Positions 18,690 through 27,542 of a stretch of 64,000 bases of DNA are shown piece after piece. The DNA comes from an uncultured Opitutales bacterium (lineage in GTDB: Bacteria > Verrucomicrobiota > Verrucomicrobiia > Opitutales > Intestinicryptomonadaceae). Made by a program: the position numbers and the translations under genes. The stretch covers positions 1 through 64,000 of the forward strand of contig CALXLK010000008.1 in the NCBI GenBank assembly GCA_944389175.1, given 5' to 3'. The notes below the pieces were generated by a model. The model made no database searches and was not told the origin of the DNA. It was given only the letters and a program-made list of their open reading frames with translations. Numbering within the stretch: position 1 is the first letter of the stretch; the number at the start of each line of letters is the position of its first letter.

Positions 18690-20060
18690 ATGGACGACTG
18701 GCATGTAAAAATTTTAGGCACCGCAAACATAGCGCAACTTATGGTGCGCTACTGCGTGCCCACTATGTTGGCAACTTCAATACAGGCCTGCTACAACATA
18801 GTCGACCGCATATTTGTCGGCAGGGTTTGCGGCGAGGACGCCCTTGCGGCCGTCACTGTATGCTTTTCGCCCCAGCTGCTCTTCTTGGCCATATCCATGA
18901 TGATAGGCCAGGGCAGCGCGGCCCTGCTTTCAATTAAGCTCGGTCAAAAGGATTACGACGGGGCTTCGCGCGTCTTTTCCCAGGCGGCTTTGCTGTTTGT
19001 GCTCTTTTACATCGGAGCGCTCTGCATATTGATGCCTTTCATGCGCGAGATTCTCGAATTTTTCGGCGCGACCCCGAAGATTGTCGACGACGCCCAGGCC
19101 TACTACACGATAATCGTTTTCGGCCTCATTTTCGAAAAAATATCCTTTGGAATAAACAATCTAATCAGGGCGGAGGGGCGCCCGGCCTACGCGATGTCGA
19201 CAATGTTTGTAGGCGCCCTCTCAAACATAATTTTGGACTACGTTTTTATGTGCGTATTCGACATGGGAGTCCGCGGAGCCGCCTACGCGACCGTCGCGGC
19301 CCAGGCGCTCGGGTCTGTTTGGGTGATGCTCTTTTACGCGGGCGGGCGCAGTTGCCTAACATTTAGGCTATCCGACGTCAAGTTTCATAGGGACATAATC
19401 GGCGCGGTTTGCTCGGCCGGATCGCCTTCGCTTATCATGCAGCTGCTTGCGGGTTTGGGCGTTTCGCTATATGTAAAACAGGCCTGCGAGTTTGGTTCCG
19501 AGAGCACCATAGCAATTGTGGGCGTCGACTTCGCGTCGACTACCATAATGTTTATGCCGGTAGTGGGGCTTTCCATGGGCGTGCAGCCGATAATCGGATA
19601 CAACTGGGGGGCGAGAAACCCGGAGCGAGTGGTAAAGACATTCTACTATGCGCTCGCGGCGGCTACGGCGTTTTGCACGCTTGCTTTTGTGTTGGCCCAG
19701 CTGTACGCCGAGGTTATATTCATGCTTTTCTTCGGAGAAACTTCGAGCCTTATAACCGAGGGTGCGCGAATAATGCGCATACTCGTCTGCTGCACGCCGT
19801 TTATCGGGGCGAATATAGTTGCATCGGGCTTCTTCCAGTCGACAAAGCGGCCGGCCTATTCGGTGGCCGTAACATTCATCAGGCAGGCGTTGTTTTTGAT
19901 ACCGCTACTTTATCTGCTGCCCATATACTTCGGCCTTGACGGCCTGTGGGCGAGTTTCCCATTATCCGACTTCATGGCCTTTCTGGTGACGCTGGTCTTT
20001 ATTTTGTTGAAAATTACGCCCGCCCGGGTAGAAGCGGATATAAGATCGCTAAAAACATAG
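18690..20060 (+). CDS. MATE family multidrug/toxin efflux transporter
   Basis: 456 residues with 12 predicted membrane helices in two pseudo-repeats. The N-terminus LGTANIAQLMVRYCVPTMLA and the following NIVDRIFVG are diagnostic for MepA/DinF-type MATE proteins, which export cationic compounds by Na+ or H+ antiport. The ATG at MDDWHVK was preferred over a TTG 13 codons upstream, which would lie 7 bp after tyrS. The next gene starts 9 bp downstream, so a small operon is likely. The substrate is unknown. Confidence 0.88.
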   Translation: MDDWHVKILGTANIAQLMVRYCVPTMLATSIQACYNIVDRIFVGRVCGEDALAAVTVCFSPQLLFLAISMMIGQGSAALLSIKLGQKDYDGASRVFSQAALLFVLFYIGALCILMPFMREILEFFGATPKIVDDAQAYYTIIVFGLIFEKISFGINNLIRAEGRPAYAMSTMFVGALSNIILDYVFMCVFDMGVRGAAYATVAAQALGSVWVMLFYAGGRSCLTFRLSDVKFHRDIIGAVCSAGSPSLIMQLLAGLGVSLYVKQACEFGSESTIAIVGVDFASTTIMFMPVVGLSMGVQPIIGYNWGARNPERVVKTFYYALAAATAFCTLAFVLAQLYAEVIFMLFFGETSSLITEGARIMRILVCCTPFIGANIVASGFFQSTKRPAYSVAVTFIRQALFLIPLLYLLPIYFGLDGLWASFPLSDFMAFLVTLVFILLKITPARVEADIRSLKT

Positions 20061-20069
20061 TTGCAAACG

Positions 20070-20816
20070 ATGCCAAACCGACAGACAGTATACAGCGTAG
20101 TGTGCATGAAATGGGGGAAAAAGTATTCTCCGGAGTACGTGAATAAGCTCTACAACATGTGCAGGCGCAACATAAGCTTAAAGTTCAACTTCATCTGCTT
20201 TACCGACGATCCCTCCGGCATAAAAGAGGGCGTCGAGATTAAGCCGCTGCCCAAAATGAAGCTCGAGGCCGGGCCCGAGCGGGGCTGGCTGAAGCTTTCG
20301 ATGTTTTCGCCCGACGTCGACATCCCTCCGGGGCGGTGCCTGTTTATTGATTTGGATACCGTCATCGTCGACAATATAGACGACTACTTTAAGGTCGATG
20401 GGGATCTCGTCCTGGTAAAGCACAGGAATCCGTCGGCCACCCAGGGCGAGGGCATGACGAGCGTCTTCCGCTTCGAGGTCGGCGCGCACCCTCAAATATA
20501 CGAGAACTTTATGCGCAACAGCGCCTCCATAAAGAGACAGTATAGGCACGAACAGGCCTACGTGTGCGGTTTTTCAAAGGCCCACAATTTCCTGTCGTTT
20601 TTCCCCGAGCAGTGGAATCCGAGCTTTAAGCATAACTGCATGCGCTTTTTCCTGCTGGGCCTCTTTCTCGAGCCCAAGATACCAAGCGGGGCAAAGATGA
20701 TAATTTTCCACGGCAATCCAACTCCGGACATGGCTCTAAAGGGAAAAATAAAGGGGATAAAAAAACTCTTTAGGTTCGTAAAACCCCCAAAATGGCTCGC
20801 GGAATATTGGCGGTAA
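20070..20816 (+). CDS. Small glycosyltransferase-like protein
   Basis: 248 residues, no close family recognised. The N-terminal half alternates beta strands and helices like a GT-A fold. It contains GRCLFIDLDTVIVDNID (near residue 88-103), where DLD resembles the metal/nucleotide-sugar DxD motif of GT8-type transferases, and FICFTDDPSGIK near residue 45. The C-terminus is basic (KGKIKGIKKLFRFVKPPKW), which could bind membrane phospholipid. It follows the MATE gene by 9 bp. A role in cell-surface glycan assembly is inferred. It may instead belong to an uncharacterised family. Confidence 0.7.
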   Translation: MPNRQTVYSVVCMKWGKKYSPEYVNKLYNMCRRNISLKFNFICFTDDPSGIKEGVEIKPLPKMKLEAGPERGWLKLSMFSPDVDIPPGRCLFIDLDTVIVDNIDDYFKVDGDLVLVKHRNPSATQGEGMTSVFRFEVGAHPQIYENFMRNSASIKRQYRHEQAYVCGFSKAHNFLSFFPEQWNPSFKHNCMRFFLLGLFLEPKIPSGAKMIIFHGNPTPDMALKGKIKGIKKLFRFVKPPKWLAEYWR

Positions 20817-20834
20817 ATTTTTTTAAAATTTTTA

Positions 20835-20865
20835 TTGACAAGTCGAACATGCTGCTCGAGCATGT
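20835..20865 (+). promoter_or_regulatory. Putative trp promoter with operator-like dyad
   Basis: A consensus -35 box TTGACA (20835-20840) is followed at 17 bp by a weak -10 (GAGCAT, 20858-20863). A perfect dyad ACATGCT-GCTCG-AGCATGT (20847-20865) covers the spacer and the -10, where a repressor would block polymerase. The dyad does not match the E. coli TrpR operator as I know it. Confidence 0.55.
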
Positions 20866-20909
20866 GCCCGATCGAGTTGGAGAAGTTCTCGATAAAATAA
20901 AATATCTGA

Positions 20910-20942
20910 ATGAAAAATTGGTGGCGCAGTCTATGGTCGTGA
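20910..20942 (+). CDS. trpL: trp operon leader peptide
   Basis: A 10-codon frame encoding MKNWWRSLWS followed by TGA. Three of ten codons are TGG, two in tandem, far above chance for tryptophan. An in-frame TGA lies directly before the ATG, so the start is fixed. The peptide is probably not functional itself. Its translation senses charged tRNA-Trp and chooses between the two RNA folds that follow. The weak point is the lack of a good ribosome site at normal distance: a purine-rich GGAGAAG lies about 25 bases upstream. It stands 68 bp before trpE. Confidence 0.85.
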   Translation: MKNWWRSLWS

Positions 20943-20998
20943 GAGTTTAAAAGATTTTTTAAACTTTGGCGGCCATTTGTCTGGTCGCCTTTTTTTTT
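20933..20998 (+). terminator. trp attenuator (terminator plus antiterminator)
   Basis: The terminator is an 8-bp stem, 20968-20975 with 20982-20989 (GGCGGCCA with TGGTCGCC, one G-T pair), followed by nine T (20990-20998). The competing fold pairs 20933-20940 (last Trp codon to the stop codon) with 20969-20976, 8 contiguous pairs including two G-U, which destroys the terminator. A ribosome stalled at the tandem Trp codons leaves 20933-20940 mostly free and favours read-through. A ribosome at the stop codon covers it and favours termination. An A/T hairpin (20945-20964) lies between them. Confidence 0.85.
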
Positions 20999-21010
20999 GA
21001 CCTAAACAAA

Positions 21011-22513
21011 ATGACACCAAATAAAGAACAATTCAAAAGTCTCGCCGCCCAGGCGAACGTAATACCGGTATATTCTCAGGTTTTGGCAGACATGGAAACG
21101 CCGGTTTCCGTGTTTTCAAAACTTGAAAGTCGCTTTGACGACTGCTTCATGCTTGAAAGCGCCGAGAACGTCGACAACTGGGGGCGGTACTCGTTCTTGG
21201 GCTGCAATCCCAAAGCGGTATTTACGCTAAACGACAAACATTCGGTGCTGAAGTTTGCCGACGGGCGGGAAATAAAGTCGACGTCGACTGAAGGCCTCGA
21301 CCAAATAGCGCCGCTGCGCCAGTATTTGGCAAGCAGAAAGCCCGCGAGAATGCCGGAGCTTCCGTCTTTTGTCGGCGGCGCCGTGGGCTACTTCGGCTAC
21401 GAGTGCGTAAACATGTTCGAACGCCTTCCCGAGCCGAAGGGTCCGCGCACGTGGGACGATGCGCGCTTTGCGCTCTACGACGATGTCATCATTTTCGACA
21501 ACCTGCGCCACACGGCAAAAATAGCCGCATGTGTGCATATCGACGAATACGAGAATTTGGACGAGGCGTACGCCGCCGGAGAGCGGCGCGTGGCAAATCT
21601 GACGGCGCTATTTAGGGCCGAACGCCCCGAGAGAAAGGTTCAACCCTGCCAGATTGAGCTTAAGTCTAACATGACAAGCCAGGAGTTTTGCGCCATGGTT
21701 GAGAAGGCCAGGCAATACATAATAGAGGGCGAGGCCATTCAGATTGTCCCTTCCCAGAAGTTTTCCACCGACGCAAAGATAGACGCCATAGCCGCTTACA
21801 GGGCTTTGCGCCTAATTAATCCTTCGCCGTACATGTTTTTCATAAAGGGCGCGGGCAGATACTTGGTGGGCTCGTCTCCCGAAACGCTCATACGCTTTAA
21901 GGATGGCACCGCCAGGGTAAGGCCCATAGCCGGCACGCGGCGCCGCGGAAAGGACCTTACCGAAGACATGAAACTGGCCGACGAATTGCTTTCAAACGAG
22001 AAGGAACGCGCGGAGCATTTGATGCTTGTTGACCTCGGAAGAAACGATTTGTCGCGCTTCTGCAAGACGTCGACGGTTATGGTGCGCGAATTTATGAAAA
22101 TTGAAAGGTATTCGCACGTCATGCACCTTGTTTCCGACATAGGCGGAATAGTGCGCGAGGGCATCGACGCCTTCGACGCACTCAAGGCAGCCTTCCCCGC
22201 GGGGACACTCTCCGGCGCCCCAAAAATCAGGGCGATGGAGATAATAAACGAGCTTGAACCCGAACGCAGGGGGCCCTACGGCGGTGCGACGGGATACATA
22301 GACTACTCCGGCAACATGGACTTGGCAATTACAATCCGCACCTTGCAGATAGCCGGCGGAAAGACGTCGGTTCAGGCTGGGGCGGGCATCGTATACGATT
22401 CAGTCCCGGCCTTCGAGTACGAGGAGACCCGAATGAAGTCGCGCGCGGTGGCCAAAGCCATAGAGACCGCGCAAAATTTGGAGGACGCCGACGTGGGCGG
22501 ACTTGTCAGATAA
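21011..22513 (+). CDS. trpE: Anthranilate synthase component I
   Basis: 500 residues from the ATG of MTPNKEQF. The frame is open 15 codons earlier, but that stretch overlaps the attenuator. It makes anthranilate from chorismate with ammonia supplied by TrpG. Chorismate-binding motifs are INPSPYMFF, SSPETLIR, RPIAGTRRRG, AGTLSGAPKIRAMEI and the C-terminal YGGATGYIDYSGNMD. The feedback site is kept in the form MLES followed by Ser ten residues on, so tryptophan inhibition is likely. It is first of seven genes in one operon and is controlled by the upstream attenuator. A ribosome site is not obvious. Confidence 0.95.
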   Translation: MTPNKEQFKSLAAQANVIPVYSQVLADMETPVSVFSKLESRFDDCFMLESAENVDNWGRYSFLGCNPKAVFTLNDKHSVLKFADGREIKSTSTEGLDQIAPLRQYLASRKPARMPELPSFVGGAVGYFGYECVNMFERLPEPKGPRTWDDARFALYDDVIIFDNLRHTAKIAACVHIDEYENLDEAYAAGERRVANLTALFRAERPERKVQPCQIELKSNMTSQEFCAMVEKARQYIIEGEAIQIVPSQKFSTDAKIDAIAAYRALRLINPSPYMFFIKGAGRYLVGSSPETLIRFKDGTARVRPIAGTRRRGKDLTEDMKLADELLSNEKERAEHLMLVDLGRNDLSRFCKTSTVMVREFMKIERYSHVMHLVSDIGGIVREGIDAFDALKAAFPAGTLSGAPKIRAMEIINELEPERRGPYGGATGYIDYSGNMDLAITIRTLQIAGGKTSVQAGAGIVYDSVPAFEYEETRMKSRAVAKAIETAQNLEDADVGGLVR

Positions 22514-22524
22514 GGAGGATTCAT

Positions 22525-23103
22525 ATGGTACTTTTGATAGACAACTACGATTCTTTTACGTTTAACCTGCTCGACTACGCCGCGGCTCTGGGAGCCGACG
22601 TAAAGGTTGTCCGCAACGACGAGCTCACAGCGGACGAGATGTTCGCCCTAAAACCGGGGGCGGTCATAATTTCGCCCGGGCCCAGCAATCCGCAGCACGC
22701 GGGTGTGTGCGTCGAGTTTATCCGCAAATACGCGGGGAAAGTTCCCATGTTCGGGGTGTGTCTGGGAATGCAGTCGATGGGATATGCCTTCGGCGGCGAC
22801 ATAGTCTCGGCAAAGCGCATAATGCACGGTAAAATCAGCAAAATTAGGCACACTGGCAAGGGCGTTTTCGAGGGAATGCCGGAGAACCTGTCGATGGTTC
22901 GCTACCACTCGCTGGCGGTGAGCGCCGACACTATGCCGGAGTGCCTCGAGATAACCGCCGTCGCCGAGGACGGCGAAGTAATGGGGTTGCGCCATAAGAA
23001 ATTCGACATCGAGGGCGTCCAGTTCCACCCGGAGTCGGTCTTAAGTTACGGCGGAAAGCGCCTCATCGAAAATTTCCTGCGCCTCAGCGGAGAGATAAAA
23101 TGA
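22525..23103 (+). CDS. trpG: Anthranilate synthase component II (glutamine amidotransferase)
   Basis: 192 residues of a class I glutamine amidotransferase. It releases ammonia from glutamine for TrpE. The triad is visible: Cys in MFGVCLGMQ and His-Glu in VQFHPESVLS. The N-terminus LLIDNYDSFTFNL is typical of TrpG/PabA. An AAGGAGG ribosome site stands before the ATG. It is a separate protein, not fused to TrpE or TrpD. As in many bacteria, it could also serve p-aminobenzoate synthesis, since no pabA/pabB gene is in the window. It overlaps trpD by 4 bp. Confidence 0.94.
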   Translation: MVLLIDNYDSFTFNLLDYAAALGADVKVVRNDELTADEMFALKPGAVIISPGPSNPQHAGVCVEFIRKYAGKVPMFGVCLGMQSMGYAFGGDIVSAKRIMHGKISKIRHTGKGVFEGMPENLSMVRYHSLAVSADTMPECLEITAVAEDGEVMGLRHKKFDIEGVQFHPESVLSYGGKRLIENFLRLSGEIK

Positions 23104-24122
23104 AAAACACTCTAAAGGCATTGTCAGTCCTGGTAAACGAGCGCCGCAATCTCACCCTAAAGGAGTCGAGCGACGTGTTCGACGAAATTATGGACGGGCG
23201 GGTTTGCAACGAAATATTGGCGGCCTTTCTTTCCGCGCTCAAGTACAAGGGGGAATGCGTCGACGAGGTGGTCGGTGCGGCCACCGCCATGCGCGCGCGG
23301 GCGACTTTCATAAGCTCCGGGGAATCGTCCCCGATAGACACCTGCGGCACGGGCGGAGACGGCTTGAATACCTTCAACATATCGACCACGGCCGCATTTA
23401 TCACGGCCGGCGCAGGCGTCAGCGTGGCAAAGCACGGCAACAGGGGCGCCTCGGCAAAGAGCGGCTCGGCCGACGTGCTCGCCAGGCTCGGGTTTAACTT
23501 GGACGCCGACACGGCATTGATGGAGCACTGCCTGCAGGAAAACGGCATAGCGTTTCTTTTTGCGCCGAAGATGCATCCTGCAATGCGCTATGCGGCCCCG
23601 GTCAGGAAAATGCTGGGCTTTAGGACAATATTCAACCTGCTCGGGCCGCTCGTCAATCCGGCGGGGGTTCTTTCGCAGATAATAGGCGTCTTCGACGCCT
23701 CTTACACGGAGCTGCTGGCCTACAGCCTCAAATGCCTGGGATCGCGCAGGGTCATGATAGTCCACTCGGCCGACGGCATGGACGAGATTTCGCCGTGCGC
23801 GCTCACGAGGATAAGCGAGCTTAAAAACGGCAGCATATGCACCCACGAGTTTAATCCCGGCCAGTATCTCGACAGGATAGGCAGCTTCGGCGAATTGCGC
23901 GGAGACGACGCCGCATACAACGCGGAAGTCACCATGCGCATCCTTGACAACAAAGACCACAGCGCCGCGACAGACGCGTGCCTGCTAAACGCCGCGGCCG
24001 GCATATACGTGGCCGGAAAGGCGGACGATTTTCAGACGGCCTTAAAAATGGCCAGAGAATCCCTCTCAAGCGGCGCGGCCAAAGAAAAGCTGGTAAAGCT
24101 CATAGAATTTTCAAAGAAATAG
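23100..24122 (+). CDS. trpD: Anthranilate phosphoribosyltransferase
   Basis: 340 residues, full length. It transfers phosphoribose from PRPP to anthranilate. The PRPP/Mg site CGTGGDGLNTFNIST and the KHGNRGASAKSGSADVLARLG block are intact, as is the anthranilate-side FLFAPKMHPAM. ATGA overlap with trpG indicates translational coupling. Three bases separate it from trpC. Confidence 0.95.
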   Translation: MKNTLKALSVLVNERRNLTLKESSDVFDEIMDGRVCNEILAAFLSALKYKGECVDEVVGAATAMRARATFISSGESSPIDTCGTGGDGLNTFNISTTAAFITAGAGVSVAKHGNRGASAKSGSADVLARLGFNLDADTALMEHCLQENGIAFLFAPKMHPAMRYAAPVRKMLGFRTIFNLLGPLVNPAGVLSQIIGVFDASYTELLAYSLKCLGSRRVMIVHSADGMDEISPCALTRISELKNGSICTHEFNPGQYLDRIGSFGELRGDDAAYNAEVTMRILDNKDHSAATDACLLNAAAGIYVAGKADDFQTALKMARESLSSGAAKEKLVKLIEFSKK

Positions 24123-24125
24123 CGT

Positions 24126-24923
24126 ATGCAAACAAATTCAATATTGGACGAAATTTGCCGGCGCAAACGCATCGACTTGGATGCTGAGAAGGATTTGCTA
24201 GGTTTCGACGAGATATATCGAAGGGCCTTGGAATCTCCCGCGCGCGCGTCGTTTAAGGCGGCTCTCTCCAAGCGGGGAATGGTTCCAAATGTCATTGCCG
24301 AGCTCAAAAAGGCATCGCCGTCGCGCGGCCTGATTCGCCCGGAATTCGATGTGGCATCTTTGGCTAGGGGGCTTGAGGGTGCCGGGGCGTCGGCTTTGTC
24401 GGTGCTTACGGAGACCCACTACTTCCTGGGGGGCGACAAAAACTTGGAGATAGCCGCACAAACAGTTAAAATACCGCTTCTTTGCAAAGATTTTATATTT
24501 GACGAATACCAGATATGCAAGGCCAGGCTGTTGGGGGCGTCGGCGGTGCTGCTTATAGTTAGGATGCTGGAGGCTTCGTCGCTGGAAAGGCTAATGGCCT
24601 TTGCAAGGGGGCTGGGCCTCGACGTGCTTTGCGAGACCCACAACGAGTCGGAGATCGCCGCCGCATGCGACGCAGGCGCCGACATAATCGGCGTTAATTG
24701 CCGCAATCTCGCCTCTTTTGAAACCGATTTCGGCATTGTGGAGCGCCAGCTTTCCAAGGTGCCAAGCGGCGCCGTGAAAGTGGCCGAAAGCGCAATCGAG
24801 GATGCCCGTATGTTGCTACGGGCAAAAAATGCGGGGGCCGACGCGGCGCTAATAGGCACGGCGCTCATGTCAAAGGCAGATCCTGCCAAGGCTCTCTCGG
24901 AGATGATTTCGCATGGGCGTTAA
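24126..24923 (+). CDS. trpC: Indole-3-glycerol phosphate synthase
   Basis: 265 residues of a TIM barrel. It closes the indole ring of CdRP to indole-3-glycerol phosphate. The motifs are VIAELKKASPSRGLIR (catalytic Lys and phosphate site), LLCKDFIFDEYQI with the second catalytic Lys, GADIIGVNCRNL and VAESAIE. It is monofunctional. The phosphoribosylanthranilate isomerase is the next gene and overlaps it by 11 bp. Confidence 0.95.
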   Translation: MQTNSILDEICRRKRIDLDAEKDLLGFDEIYRRALESPARASFKAALSKRGMVPNVIAELKKASPSRGLIRPEFDVASLARGLEGAGASALSVLTETHYFLGGDKNLEIAAQTVKIPLLCKDFIFDEYQICKARLLGASAVLLIVRMLEASSLERLMAFARGLGLDVLCETHNESEIAAACDAGADIIGVNCRNLASFETDFGIVERQLSKVPSGAVKVAESAIEDARMLLRAKNAGADAALIGTALMSKADPAKALSEMISHGR

Positions 24924-25539
24924 AATAAAAATTTGCGGGCTAAAGAGCGTTGCAGACGCGGAAGTGGCGGCCGCCTGCGGGGCCGACTTTGCGGGGGTTG
25001 TATTCCACGAAAAAAGCCCGCGCAAAGTTTCGGTTGAAACGGCGCGCCGAATCGCCATGGCATCCCGCGCCGCCTCGGCAAAGCCGATAAAGCTTGTCGG
25101 CGTATTTACCCGGGGGGATTATTCGTTTATAAGGCAGACTATGTGCGAGGCCGATTTGGATATAGCGCAGCTTCATTTTGACGCCTCCGACGATCTAGTC
25201 GAGCGCCTTATGAAAGACTGGCGGGTGTGGCGCGCGTTTTGGCTTTCATGCGAGGCCGACGTCGAGGCCGCGCTCTCTTCAAAAGCCGACGCCGTGCTGC
25301 TCGATTCCCGGAATTCGATTTTGCCCGGAGGAACCGGCGAGCTTTCAAACTGGGAATTGGCCGCGGAAGTTGCCCGCAAACGCAAGGTCGTCCTTGCGGG
25401 GGGGATTTCCGCCGAGAACGCCTTAGAGGCGGTATCGGCGGTTAGGCCCTGGGCTATCGATGCAAACAGCGGCGTGGAAGTAGCACCGGGCCAAAAGGAT
25501 CCTTTGAAAATTCGCAAACTTTTATCTCTTAAATTATGA
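24913..25539 (+). CDS. trpF: Phosphoribosylanthranilate isomerase
   Basis: 208 residues of a TIM barrel carrying out the Amadori rearrangement of PRA to CdRP. The general base Cys8 is in KIKICGLKS and the general acid Asp131 in [26 protein letters not shown] and [14 protein letters not shown] form the phosphate pocket. The usual QLHG is QLHF here. It overlaps trpC by 11 bp and trpB by 4 bp. Confidence 0.93.
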
Positions 25540-26741
25540 AAGAATACATAGACACAAAACACGGAAAATTCGGGCAATACGGCGGGCAGTACGTCGCCGA
25601 GACGCTCATGAGCGCCCTTAAAGACCTCGAAGCCGAGTTTAACAAGGCGCTAAAAGACGAGTCCTTCCAGCGGGAATATCTTCAGTTGCTCAAGGATTAC
25701 GTCGGGCGTCCGACCCCGCTTTACTATGCGGAACGCCTCAGCAAATATTGCGGCGGGGCGCGCATTTATCTAAAGCGCGAAGATCTAAACCACACCGGCG
25801 CCCATAAAATAAACAACGCCCTCGGACAGGCTCTACTTGCGCGCAGAATGGGCAAACGGCGCCTGATAGCCGAGACTGGCGCGGGCATGCACGGCGTGGC
25901 AACGGCCACGGCGGCCGCCCTCCTGGGGCTTGAGTGCGACATATTTATGGGCGCCGAGGACATCAGGCGCCAGGCTCAGAACGTATCGCGCATACAGATG
26001 CTCGGCGGCAAGATGGTCAAGGTGAGTCTCGACGATGTAGAAGCCACGCTCAAGGACGCCATGAACGAGGCTCTGCGCAACTGGGTCGCCACGGTGGAGG
26101 ACACTTTCTACGTCATAGGCACGGCGGCCGGCCCGCACCCGTATCCGCTGATGGTCAAGGAATTTCAGTCGATAATAGGCAGGGAGGCCAAAAGGCAGTT
26201 TATGGAGGCAAACGGAGGTGCGCTGCCCAAACAGGTCATAGCATGCGTCGGCGGAGGCAGCAATTCCATAGGCACATTTGCGCCCTTCATAGGCGACGAT
26301 AGCGTGGCTCTCTACGGGGCGGAGGCCGCAGGAGCGGGGATTGAAACCGGCAGGCATTCGGCCAGCCTCAACGGCGGCTCGGTTGGCGTTCTCCACGGAA
26401 ATAAGACGTACCTTTTGCAGGACGAAAACGGGCAGATACTAAACACGTATTCGGTATCTGCGGGGCTCGACTATCCAGGGGTCGGCCCGGAACACGCCTA
26501 TCTGCACGACACCGGCAGGGCAAAATACGTGCCGATAACAGACGCCGAGGCGGTGGACGCCTTTGAAAAACTCTGCCGCTACGAGGGCATTATTCCGGCG
26601 TTGGAATCCTCGCACGCGCTGGCTCTGGCGATTAAAAATGCGCGCGATATGTCGAAAGAGGACAGCATTATCGTAACGCTCTCGGGGCGCGGCGACAAGG
26701 ATATGCAGTCGGTTTTGGAATATTTGGAGGCAAATAAGTAG
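25536..26741 (+). CDS. trpB: Tryptophan synthase beta chain
   Basis: 401 residues, PLP enzyme. It condenses indole with serine to tryptophan. Lys91 in [11 protein letters not shown] holds PLP. Glu113 in [14 protein letters not shown] is the catalytic acid/base, and VGGGSNSIG binds the PLP phosphate. The residue after GAG is Met118, where most TrpB proteins I know have Gln. The length and the GRGDKD C-terminal motif fit the standard TrpB1 type that pairs with TrpA. Overlap with trpF and direct abutment with trpA support complex assembly. Confidence 0.95.
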
Positions 26742-27542
26742 ATGAAAAATCTTTTCGCAAAATTAAAGGAAGAAAAACGAGCCGGTCTGGTTATTTTCCT
26801 GACCTGCGGCGACCCGTCAATGGAGTTTACGGAAAAGCTCGTGGAGCGCGTCTGCAAGGCGGGCGCGGACGTCGTGGAGCTCGGCGTGCCGTTCTCGGAT
26901 CCCATGGCCGACGGCAAGACGATTCAAATGTCGAGCGCGCGCGCCATCAAGGCGGGGGCGACTTTTGCAAAAGTCTTGGATTTGGTCGCGCGCCTCAGGG
27001 CAAAGGGGATAGACAAAAAATTCGTCCTCTTTTCGTATTTTAATCCGATATTCCACTACGGGACTGCCCGCGCCGCCAAACAGAGCAAGGAGGCGGGCGT
27101 CGATGCGTGGCTGGTAGTCGATGTGCCGATGGAGGAAGGCGACGAGATTCGCCAATACACAACCCCCCTGGGCATAGACTTCGTGCCGTTGGCAGCCCCC
27201 ACATCTTCGCCCGAACGCATACGCGAAATTTCCGAGCACGGCAGCGGTATGCTATACTATGTGTCGGTCGCCGGCGTGACGGGAGCGCGTACGAAACTTC
27301 CCGATGGCTTTCAGAGCCGCATGCAGGCCGTATGCAAAGCCTCTAAGCTCCCCGTCGGCGTGGGCTTTGGCATATCGACACCCCAGATGGCCTCGGCCGT
27401 GGCGTCCGTCGCCGACGCGGTCATAGTGGGCAGCAAGTTTATAGACACCGTTTATAAAACTTACGTGGAAAAAGGAGAAGATGCCGCTCTGGAGGCCGCA
27501 GAAAATTTTGTGCGCCCACTGGCGGCGGCGCTTAAAAAGTAG
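26742..27542 (+). CDS. trpA: Tryptophan synthase alpha chain
   Basis: 266 residues of a TIM barrel. It cleaves indole-3-glycerol phosphate and channels indole to TrpB. Catalytic Glu46 and Asp57 lie in VVELGVPFSDPMADG. The following residue is Lys59 where Pro is common (ADGPTIQ). FSYFNPIFHYG, SVAGVTGAR and VGVGFGIST are the loop and phosphate motifs. It begins immediately after the trpB stop codon and ends the operon before a strong terminator. Confidence 0.94.
   Translation: MKNLFAKLKEEKRAGLVIFLTCGDPSMEFTEKLVERVCKAGADVVELGVPFSDPMADGKTIQMSSARAIKAGATFAKVLDLVARLRAKGIDKKFVLFSYFNPIFHYGTARAAKQSKEAGVDAWLVVDVPMEEGDEIRQYTTPLGIDFVPLAAPTSSPERIREISEHGSGMLYYVSVAGVTGARTKLPDGFQSRMQAVCKASKLPVGVGFGISTPQMASAVASVADAVIVGSKFIDTVYKTYVEKGEDAALEAAENFVRPLAAALKK

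Follow-up and report, generated by a model that had tools for sequence, protein, structure and literature searches.

In Escherichia coli, the trp operon is preceded by trpL, a leader of the Yanofsky type in which a short peptide with tandem Trp codons lies before trpE, and in which a mutually exclusive antiterminator and terminator share a common arm. Vitreschak and colleagues are said to have predicted, in 2004, attenuators in a few further phyla. According to a 2010 survey, leader-peptide systems had been known only in Proteobacteria and Actinobacteria before its own addition of Firmicutes (PMC2965389). The His leaders of hisS and hisZ in Bacilli (PMC2965389) extend leader-peptide attenuation beyond the former two phyla, possibly by an independent origin; compared to the leader described here, they carry His codons, precede hisS and hisZ, and belong to Firmicutes. 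The ilvB leader of Corynebacterium (ilvB-II motif, PMC10272879) also places a uORF-controlled terminator and antiterminator before a biosynthetic operon, but it uses branched-chain amino acid codons, differs in sequence and structure, and is found in Actinobacteria. A literature search, with most subscription journals outside its coverage, found no description of trp leader-peptide attenuation in Verrucomicrobiota. Most likely, the principle of the present leader is that of the classical leader-peptide attenuator, here in a phylum for which that search gave no earlier case, and with an unusual predicted fold.

The window, a stretch of 64,000 nucleotides that was analysed as a whole, belongs to an uncultured Opitutales bacterium with a genome of 2.29 Mb in 32 contigs (93% complete). 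Its TrpE is 61% identical to that of an uncultured Verrucomicrobiota bacterium (CASDUP010000054.1, the only named record among the close relatives), which supports a placement in the PVC group. The trp genes are arranged in the order trpE-G-D-C-F-B-A, as assigned by NCBIfam matches, and are headed by a leader that is very probably a ribosome-mediated transcription attenuator of trpEGDCFBA. A 251-aa ORF at 20061-20816, directly upstream of the trp promoter, has no NCBIfam match. The features of the locus are as follows.

20835-20840, + strand: probable -35 element (TTGACA) of the trp promoter; no clear -10 element
20910-20942, + strand: leader peptide ORF MKNWWRSLWS, 10 codons, stop TGA; RTG start, in-frame WW and stop kept in 15/15 leaders
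20919-20924, + strand: control codons TGG TGG (codons 4 and 5)
20920-20929, + strand: arm A (GGTGGC-CAG), partner of the terminator 3' arm without a ribosome in the minimum-energy folds of the window leader and relatives
20933-20940, + strand: arm B, the antiterminator 5' arm, which overlaps the leader stop codon (folds and covariation)
20934-20936, + strand: third TGG (codon 9), inside arm B and probably incidental
20942-20967, + strand: inner A+T-rich stem (20942-20952 with 20957-20967) that lengthens the antiterminator hairpin and covaries
20969-20976, + strand: arm C, common to antiterminator (B:C) and terminator (C:D) (folds and covariation)
20981-20989, + strand: arm D, the terminator 3' arm, with arm A as alternative partner (folds and alignment)
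20968-20998, + strand: intrinsic terminator, with C:D hairpin 20968-20989 and T9 tract 20990-20998 (terminator scan; pairing kept)
21011-22513, + strand: trpE, first operon gene, start ATG at 21011
22525-27542, + strand: trpG, trpD, trpC, trpF, trpB and trpA

Direct reading of 20910-20942 gives the codons ATG AAA AAT TGG TGG CGC AGT CTA TGG TCG TGA, which is the ten-codon leader with Trp codons put forward in the original prediction. The intrinsic terminator and the alternative 8-bp pairing proposed along with it are both present. The terminator, with the letters GGCGGCC-loop-GGTCGCC followed by T9, lies between the leader and the first structural gene and is the sole plus-strand terminator-like site within 20000-21500, while the pairing of 20933-20940 with 20969-20976 belongs to the minimum-energy fold. 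Compared to shuffled sequences, the folds are much more stable, with z-scores of -8.2 for 20910-20998 and -6.1 for 20872-20998. On both strands of the window, a short tandem-Trp ORF with a terminator no more than 100 nt further on occurs as one free-standing case; the only other match (50640) is formed by the final part, at the 3' side, of a long ORF, and the pattern was found 0 times in 60 Markov replicas of the window.

TrpE loci were gathered from 88 relatives, and a covariance model of the leader was searched against 373 genomes of the order. The alignment comprises 15 leaders of 14 genomes, namely 14 leaders from 13 genomes of the genus plus L011 from a sister genus; the relatives belong without exception to a single family, and probably the majority of them, if not every one, are metagenome bins. 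Invariant or near-invariant are the RTG start, the TGG TGG pair, GGTCG in arm B, GGCG[G/A]CC in arm C, GG[T/C]CGC in arm D and the T tract. The leader peptides, of 10-13 codons compared to 14 in E. coli trpL, include MKNWWRSLWS in the window, MNNWWYSPRSLRV, MRNWWHSPKVA, MQKWWHSLRS and MFNFWWQNIRS. Clustered codons for the pathway product thus sit in a short leader ORF before trp genes, Trp codons 4 and 5 being present in 15/15 leaders; the codons downstream of the pair are variable, and the stop codon lies at or just past arm B in every leader. The original prediction had counted three Trp codons in the leader. The tandem pair stands, whereas codon 9 is private to the window genome, where the conserved GGTCG is read within TGG TCG; being unconserved and inside arm B, it was rejected as a control codon. 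Arm B would be hidden under a ribosome that waits at codon 9, so that this codon cannot promote antitermination. Some further covariance matches were set aside: C10:39705-39750 of the own genome (E 0.006) resembles a terminator but has no leader, other own-genome matches besides 20910-20997 are weaker or on the reverse strand, and a match in G332 (E 0.002) is a G+C-rich stem without a WW leader.

The antiterminator and the terminator are mutually exclusive through the common arm C. The original prediction had staked itself on conservation of the Trp codons and of both competing stems upstream of trpE in relatives; all 15 leaders conserve both, and the stems covary. Across B:C and the inner stem, 96.7% of the cells in the 15-leader alignment are paired, and double changes occur at 6 pairs compared to 2.0 +/- 1.1 in shuffles, with lower values in every slid register; the aligned rows are related, and these counts are not independent events. 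Within the inner stem, both sides changed in 4/8 counted pairs. An outer B:C pair switched from A-U to U-A in the window, and another in L011. The changed C-side base of L011 falls within the loop of the terminator, whose pairing therefore does not account for the change in this leader; that of the window forms one extra closing pair in its own terminator fold, which makes L011 the cleaner case of covariation. The C:D pairing is standard in 90/90 cells of 15/15 leaders, including one G-C to A-U double change (L066).

The ribosome usually covers 15 nt beyond the first base of its P site. When the A site holds the second Trp codon, this footprint reaches leader nt 25 (nt 28 in L011). Arm B has the first base of its GGTCG core at nt 26-27 in 14 leaders and at nt 29 in L011, so that 0-1 nt would separate the stalled ribosome from the antiterminator arm. 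In 15/15 leaders, 10-11 nt lie between the Trp pair and arm B; L011 has its Trp codons displaced by 3 nt, and arm B has moved along with them (28 versus 29). In all 15 leaders, arm B is free with a ribosome on the control codons and covered with a ribosome at the stop codon, where P(C:D) = 1.00. With a ribosome on either Trp codon and the D arm not yet made, P(B:C) = 1.00. For a ribosome stalled on the second Trp codon, the full-length equilibrium fold gives P(C:D) of 0.05-1.00 and often favours the terminator, so that antitermination needs B:C to form first during transcription. Lengthening the modelled footprint by one base left the picture unchanged, apart from a larger share of terminator when the second Trp codon is occupied. 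The modelled geometry argues strongly that the leader reads the position of the ribosome.

We propose that RNA polymerase would start upstream of 20910 and that a ribosome would translate the leader. When Trp-tRNA is scarce, the ribosome would wait at one of the two control codons (20919-20924), and its leading edge would stop at or before the nucleotide that adjoins arm B; the free arm B would pair with arm C and enclose the A+T-rich inner stem, no terminator would form, and trpE would be transcribed. A ribosome at the stop codon would cover arm B and leave arms C and D to form the terminator. Translation, Trp response and termination are what we infer from the observed anatomy, conservation, covariation and geometry. 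We regard the element as a real, functionally constrained Trp attenuator.

The fold of the untranslated leader differs from that of E. coli trpL. Without a ribosome, 12 leaders together with L066 and L067 adopt one nested fold, with A:D outside and B:C inside, and P(C:D) is 0.00-0.01 in 15/15 leaders. In these computed folds the partner of the Trp codons is the terminator 3' arm, whereas E. coli trpL folds into its terminator; the same folding procedure also yields the terminator for two leaders of the sister genus g2 and two of the family f30, and L110 is mixed. The six inner A:D pairs are standard in 15/15 leaders and the CAG:CUG pairs in 14, 11 and 15 of 15, the middle pair being lost in 4 leaders under the chosen register. 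The last base of codon 6 is C, which can pair with G, in 14/15 leaders though the residue is H, F, R, Y or S, and the serine codon AGT (codon 7, 20928-20930) is used in 13/15 leaders compared to 1% of trpE serine codons. Both biases support selection of the A:D pairing, and the conservation of AGT could reflect RNA pairing or other reasons, e.g. slow decoding. The A:D helix partly follows from the Trp codons themselves, and no clean double change was found in it among the 15 leaders.

We lean, by a little, towards a default-ON attenuator, in which only a ribosome that finishes the leader peptide would switch the operon off, the unit being retained (twice in one genome) when the operon shrinks to trpB and trpA. 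An untranslated leader would form B:C and A:D and allow read-through, and termination would need completed leader translation. In E. coli, by contrast, a shut-down of leader translation leads to superattenuation (PMC1183508).

The alternative is a classical four-region trp attenuator, a design known from enterobacteria, with a 1:2 protector hairpin that makes the untranslated leader terminate (default OFF). A trp leader of a different kind, with a strong hairpin and a default terminator, does occur in the same family in g2; in addition, arm B pairs weakly with the upstream leader before arm C is made (P 0.05-0.85 in most sequences), so that a modest protector effect is possible. However, no strong classical 1:2 protector hairpin was found in the computed leader folds, the leader up to arm B reaching only -2.3 to -6.7 kcal/mol compared to -16.5 kcal/mol in E. 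coli, and the near absence of C:D from the whole leader without a ribosome argues in the same direction. We therefore regard default OFF as unlikely. The classical ribosome-position switch of the original prediction is supported, with the refinements that a strong protector hairpin is absent from the computed folds and that the predicted default fold is opposite to that of E. coli.

Alternatively, the conserved RNA might be a riboswitch or the site of a Trp-responsive protein, with an incidental leader ORF. The loop TTTTGTCT and the arms are indeed conserved at the nucleotide level, and no Shine-Dalgarno motif was found before the leader start, which had initially been named as the main doubt about the attenuator. 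This doubt is weak and was rejected as a serious objection: although the 16S end of the host genome carries CACCTCCTTT, an SD-like motif precedes only 13/26 gene starts of the window, and trpE, trpC and trpB are without one. In C. glutamicum, a leader peptide is reported to form even though a ribosome binding site is missing (Morbach et al. 2000, cited in PMC10272879). Against an incidental ORF, the RTG start, the in-frame TGG TGG and the stop are kept while adjoining codons vary, the spacing of the Trp pair and arm B fits the ribosome footprint, and arm B of L011 shifts with the codons. Rfam T-box and riboswitch models gave no match to the leader, nor did the Rfam Trp_leader covariance model, even at E up to 10; low-threshold Rfam matches were all far under the gathering scores. 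TrpR (PF01371) was not found in the host genome at its 93% completeness. Altogether, a riboswitch or protein site is highly improbable, and the leader is better read as an attenuator that follows ribosome position. A TTGAC -35-like element lies 46-84 nt 5' of the leader start in 15/15 leaders, so transcription probably begins upstream of the leader, and not downstream of 20942, a start that the original prediction had held to be fatal to it. Just 3' of the -35 element, at 20847-20865, lies an imperfect 19-bp palindrome, ACATGCTGCTCGAGCATGT; it was not adopted as a TrpR operator, as it was unseen on inspection upstream of other leaders and no TrpR was found.

Among the 14 genomes of the genus, the leader is present in 13/13 that have trp genes. 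The other genome, G010, lacks trpE, trpB and the leader; this single contig of 2.3 Mb has no match to trpE, trpB, hisG or LeuA_dimer, and would seem to be auxotrophic for a broad set of amino acids. In G009, which gave no match to trpE, the leader (L067:2803-2889) precedes trpB-trpA, and G003, also without a trpE match, has two leaders on different contigs (L065:2974-3064 and L066:2978-3064) before trpB and trpA separately. Retention of the leader in these two genomes suggests indole use or a reduced pathway. That the element is an ordinary constitutive terminator or insulator before trpE with chance Trp codons is barely credible, for although a strong terminator is present, the competing stem covaries, the tandem Trp codons are invariant in 15 leaders, and the leader outlasts the loss of trpE and precedes both trpB and trpA in G003. 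No His leaders were found upstream of hisG in the 13 genus genomes.

Other Trp leaders occur in the class. In the sister genus g2 (G014 and G016), trpB comes first and trpE after it, with an unrelated WW leader (MNTSVCASFSWWRLSCRKTDGIHAR) and a terminator. Past its Trp codons this leader forms a strong hairpin, and its computed default fold is the terminator (L033 reverse complement, about 938-1090; L034), and leader and arrangement look like a separate acquisition. In genus g102 of family f30, MQFSTGQPFFSTTRYYGNGYWWRVPMSGRGNPDVQ or a near variant and a long terminator hairpin lie before trpE in the 5 genomes examined (L101-L105). The g102 leader is conserved, has 35 codons with FF, YY and WW, and could respond to several of the aromatic amino acids. 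W-rich leader candidates are present in other f30 genomes, and an f14 genome (L073) has one candidate leader. A mechanical scan of a limited sample of other loci from the order and class gave no convincing WW leader directly before trpE. With at least two more unrelated Trp leaders in the class, repeated invention of such leaders within it is suggested.

The persistence of the leader before trpB and trpA after the loss of trpE represents a regulatory unit that outlives most of its operon. The predicted default-ON logic would reverse the textbook superattenuation, and the interest of this leader would rise if that logic is true.
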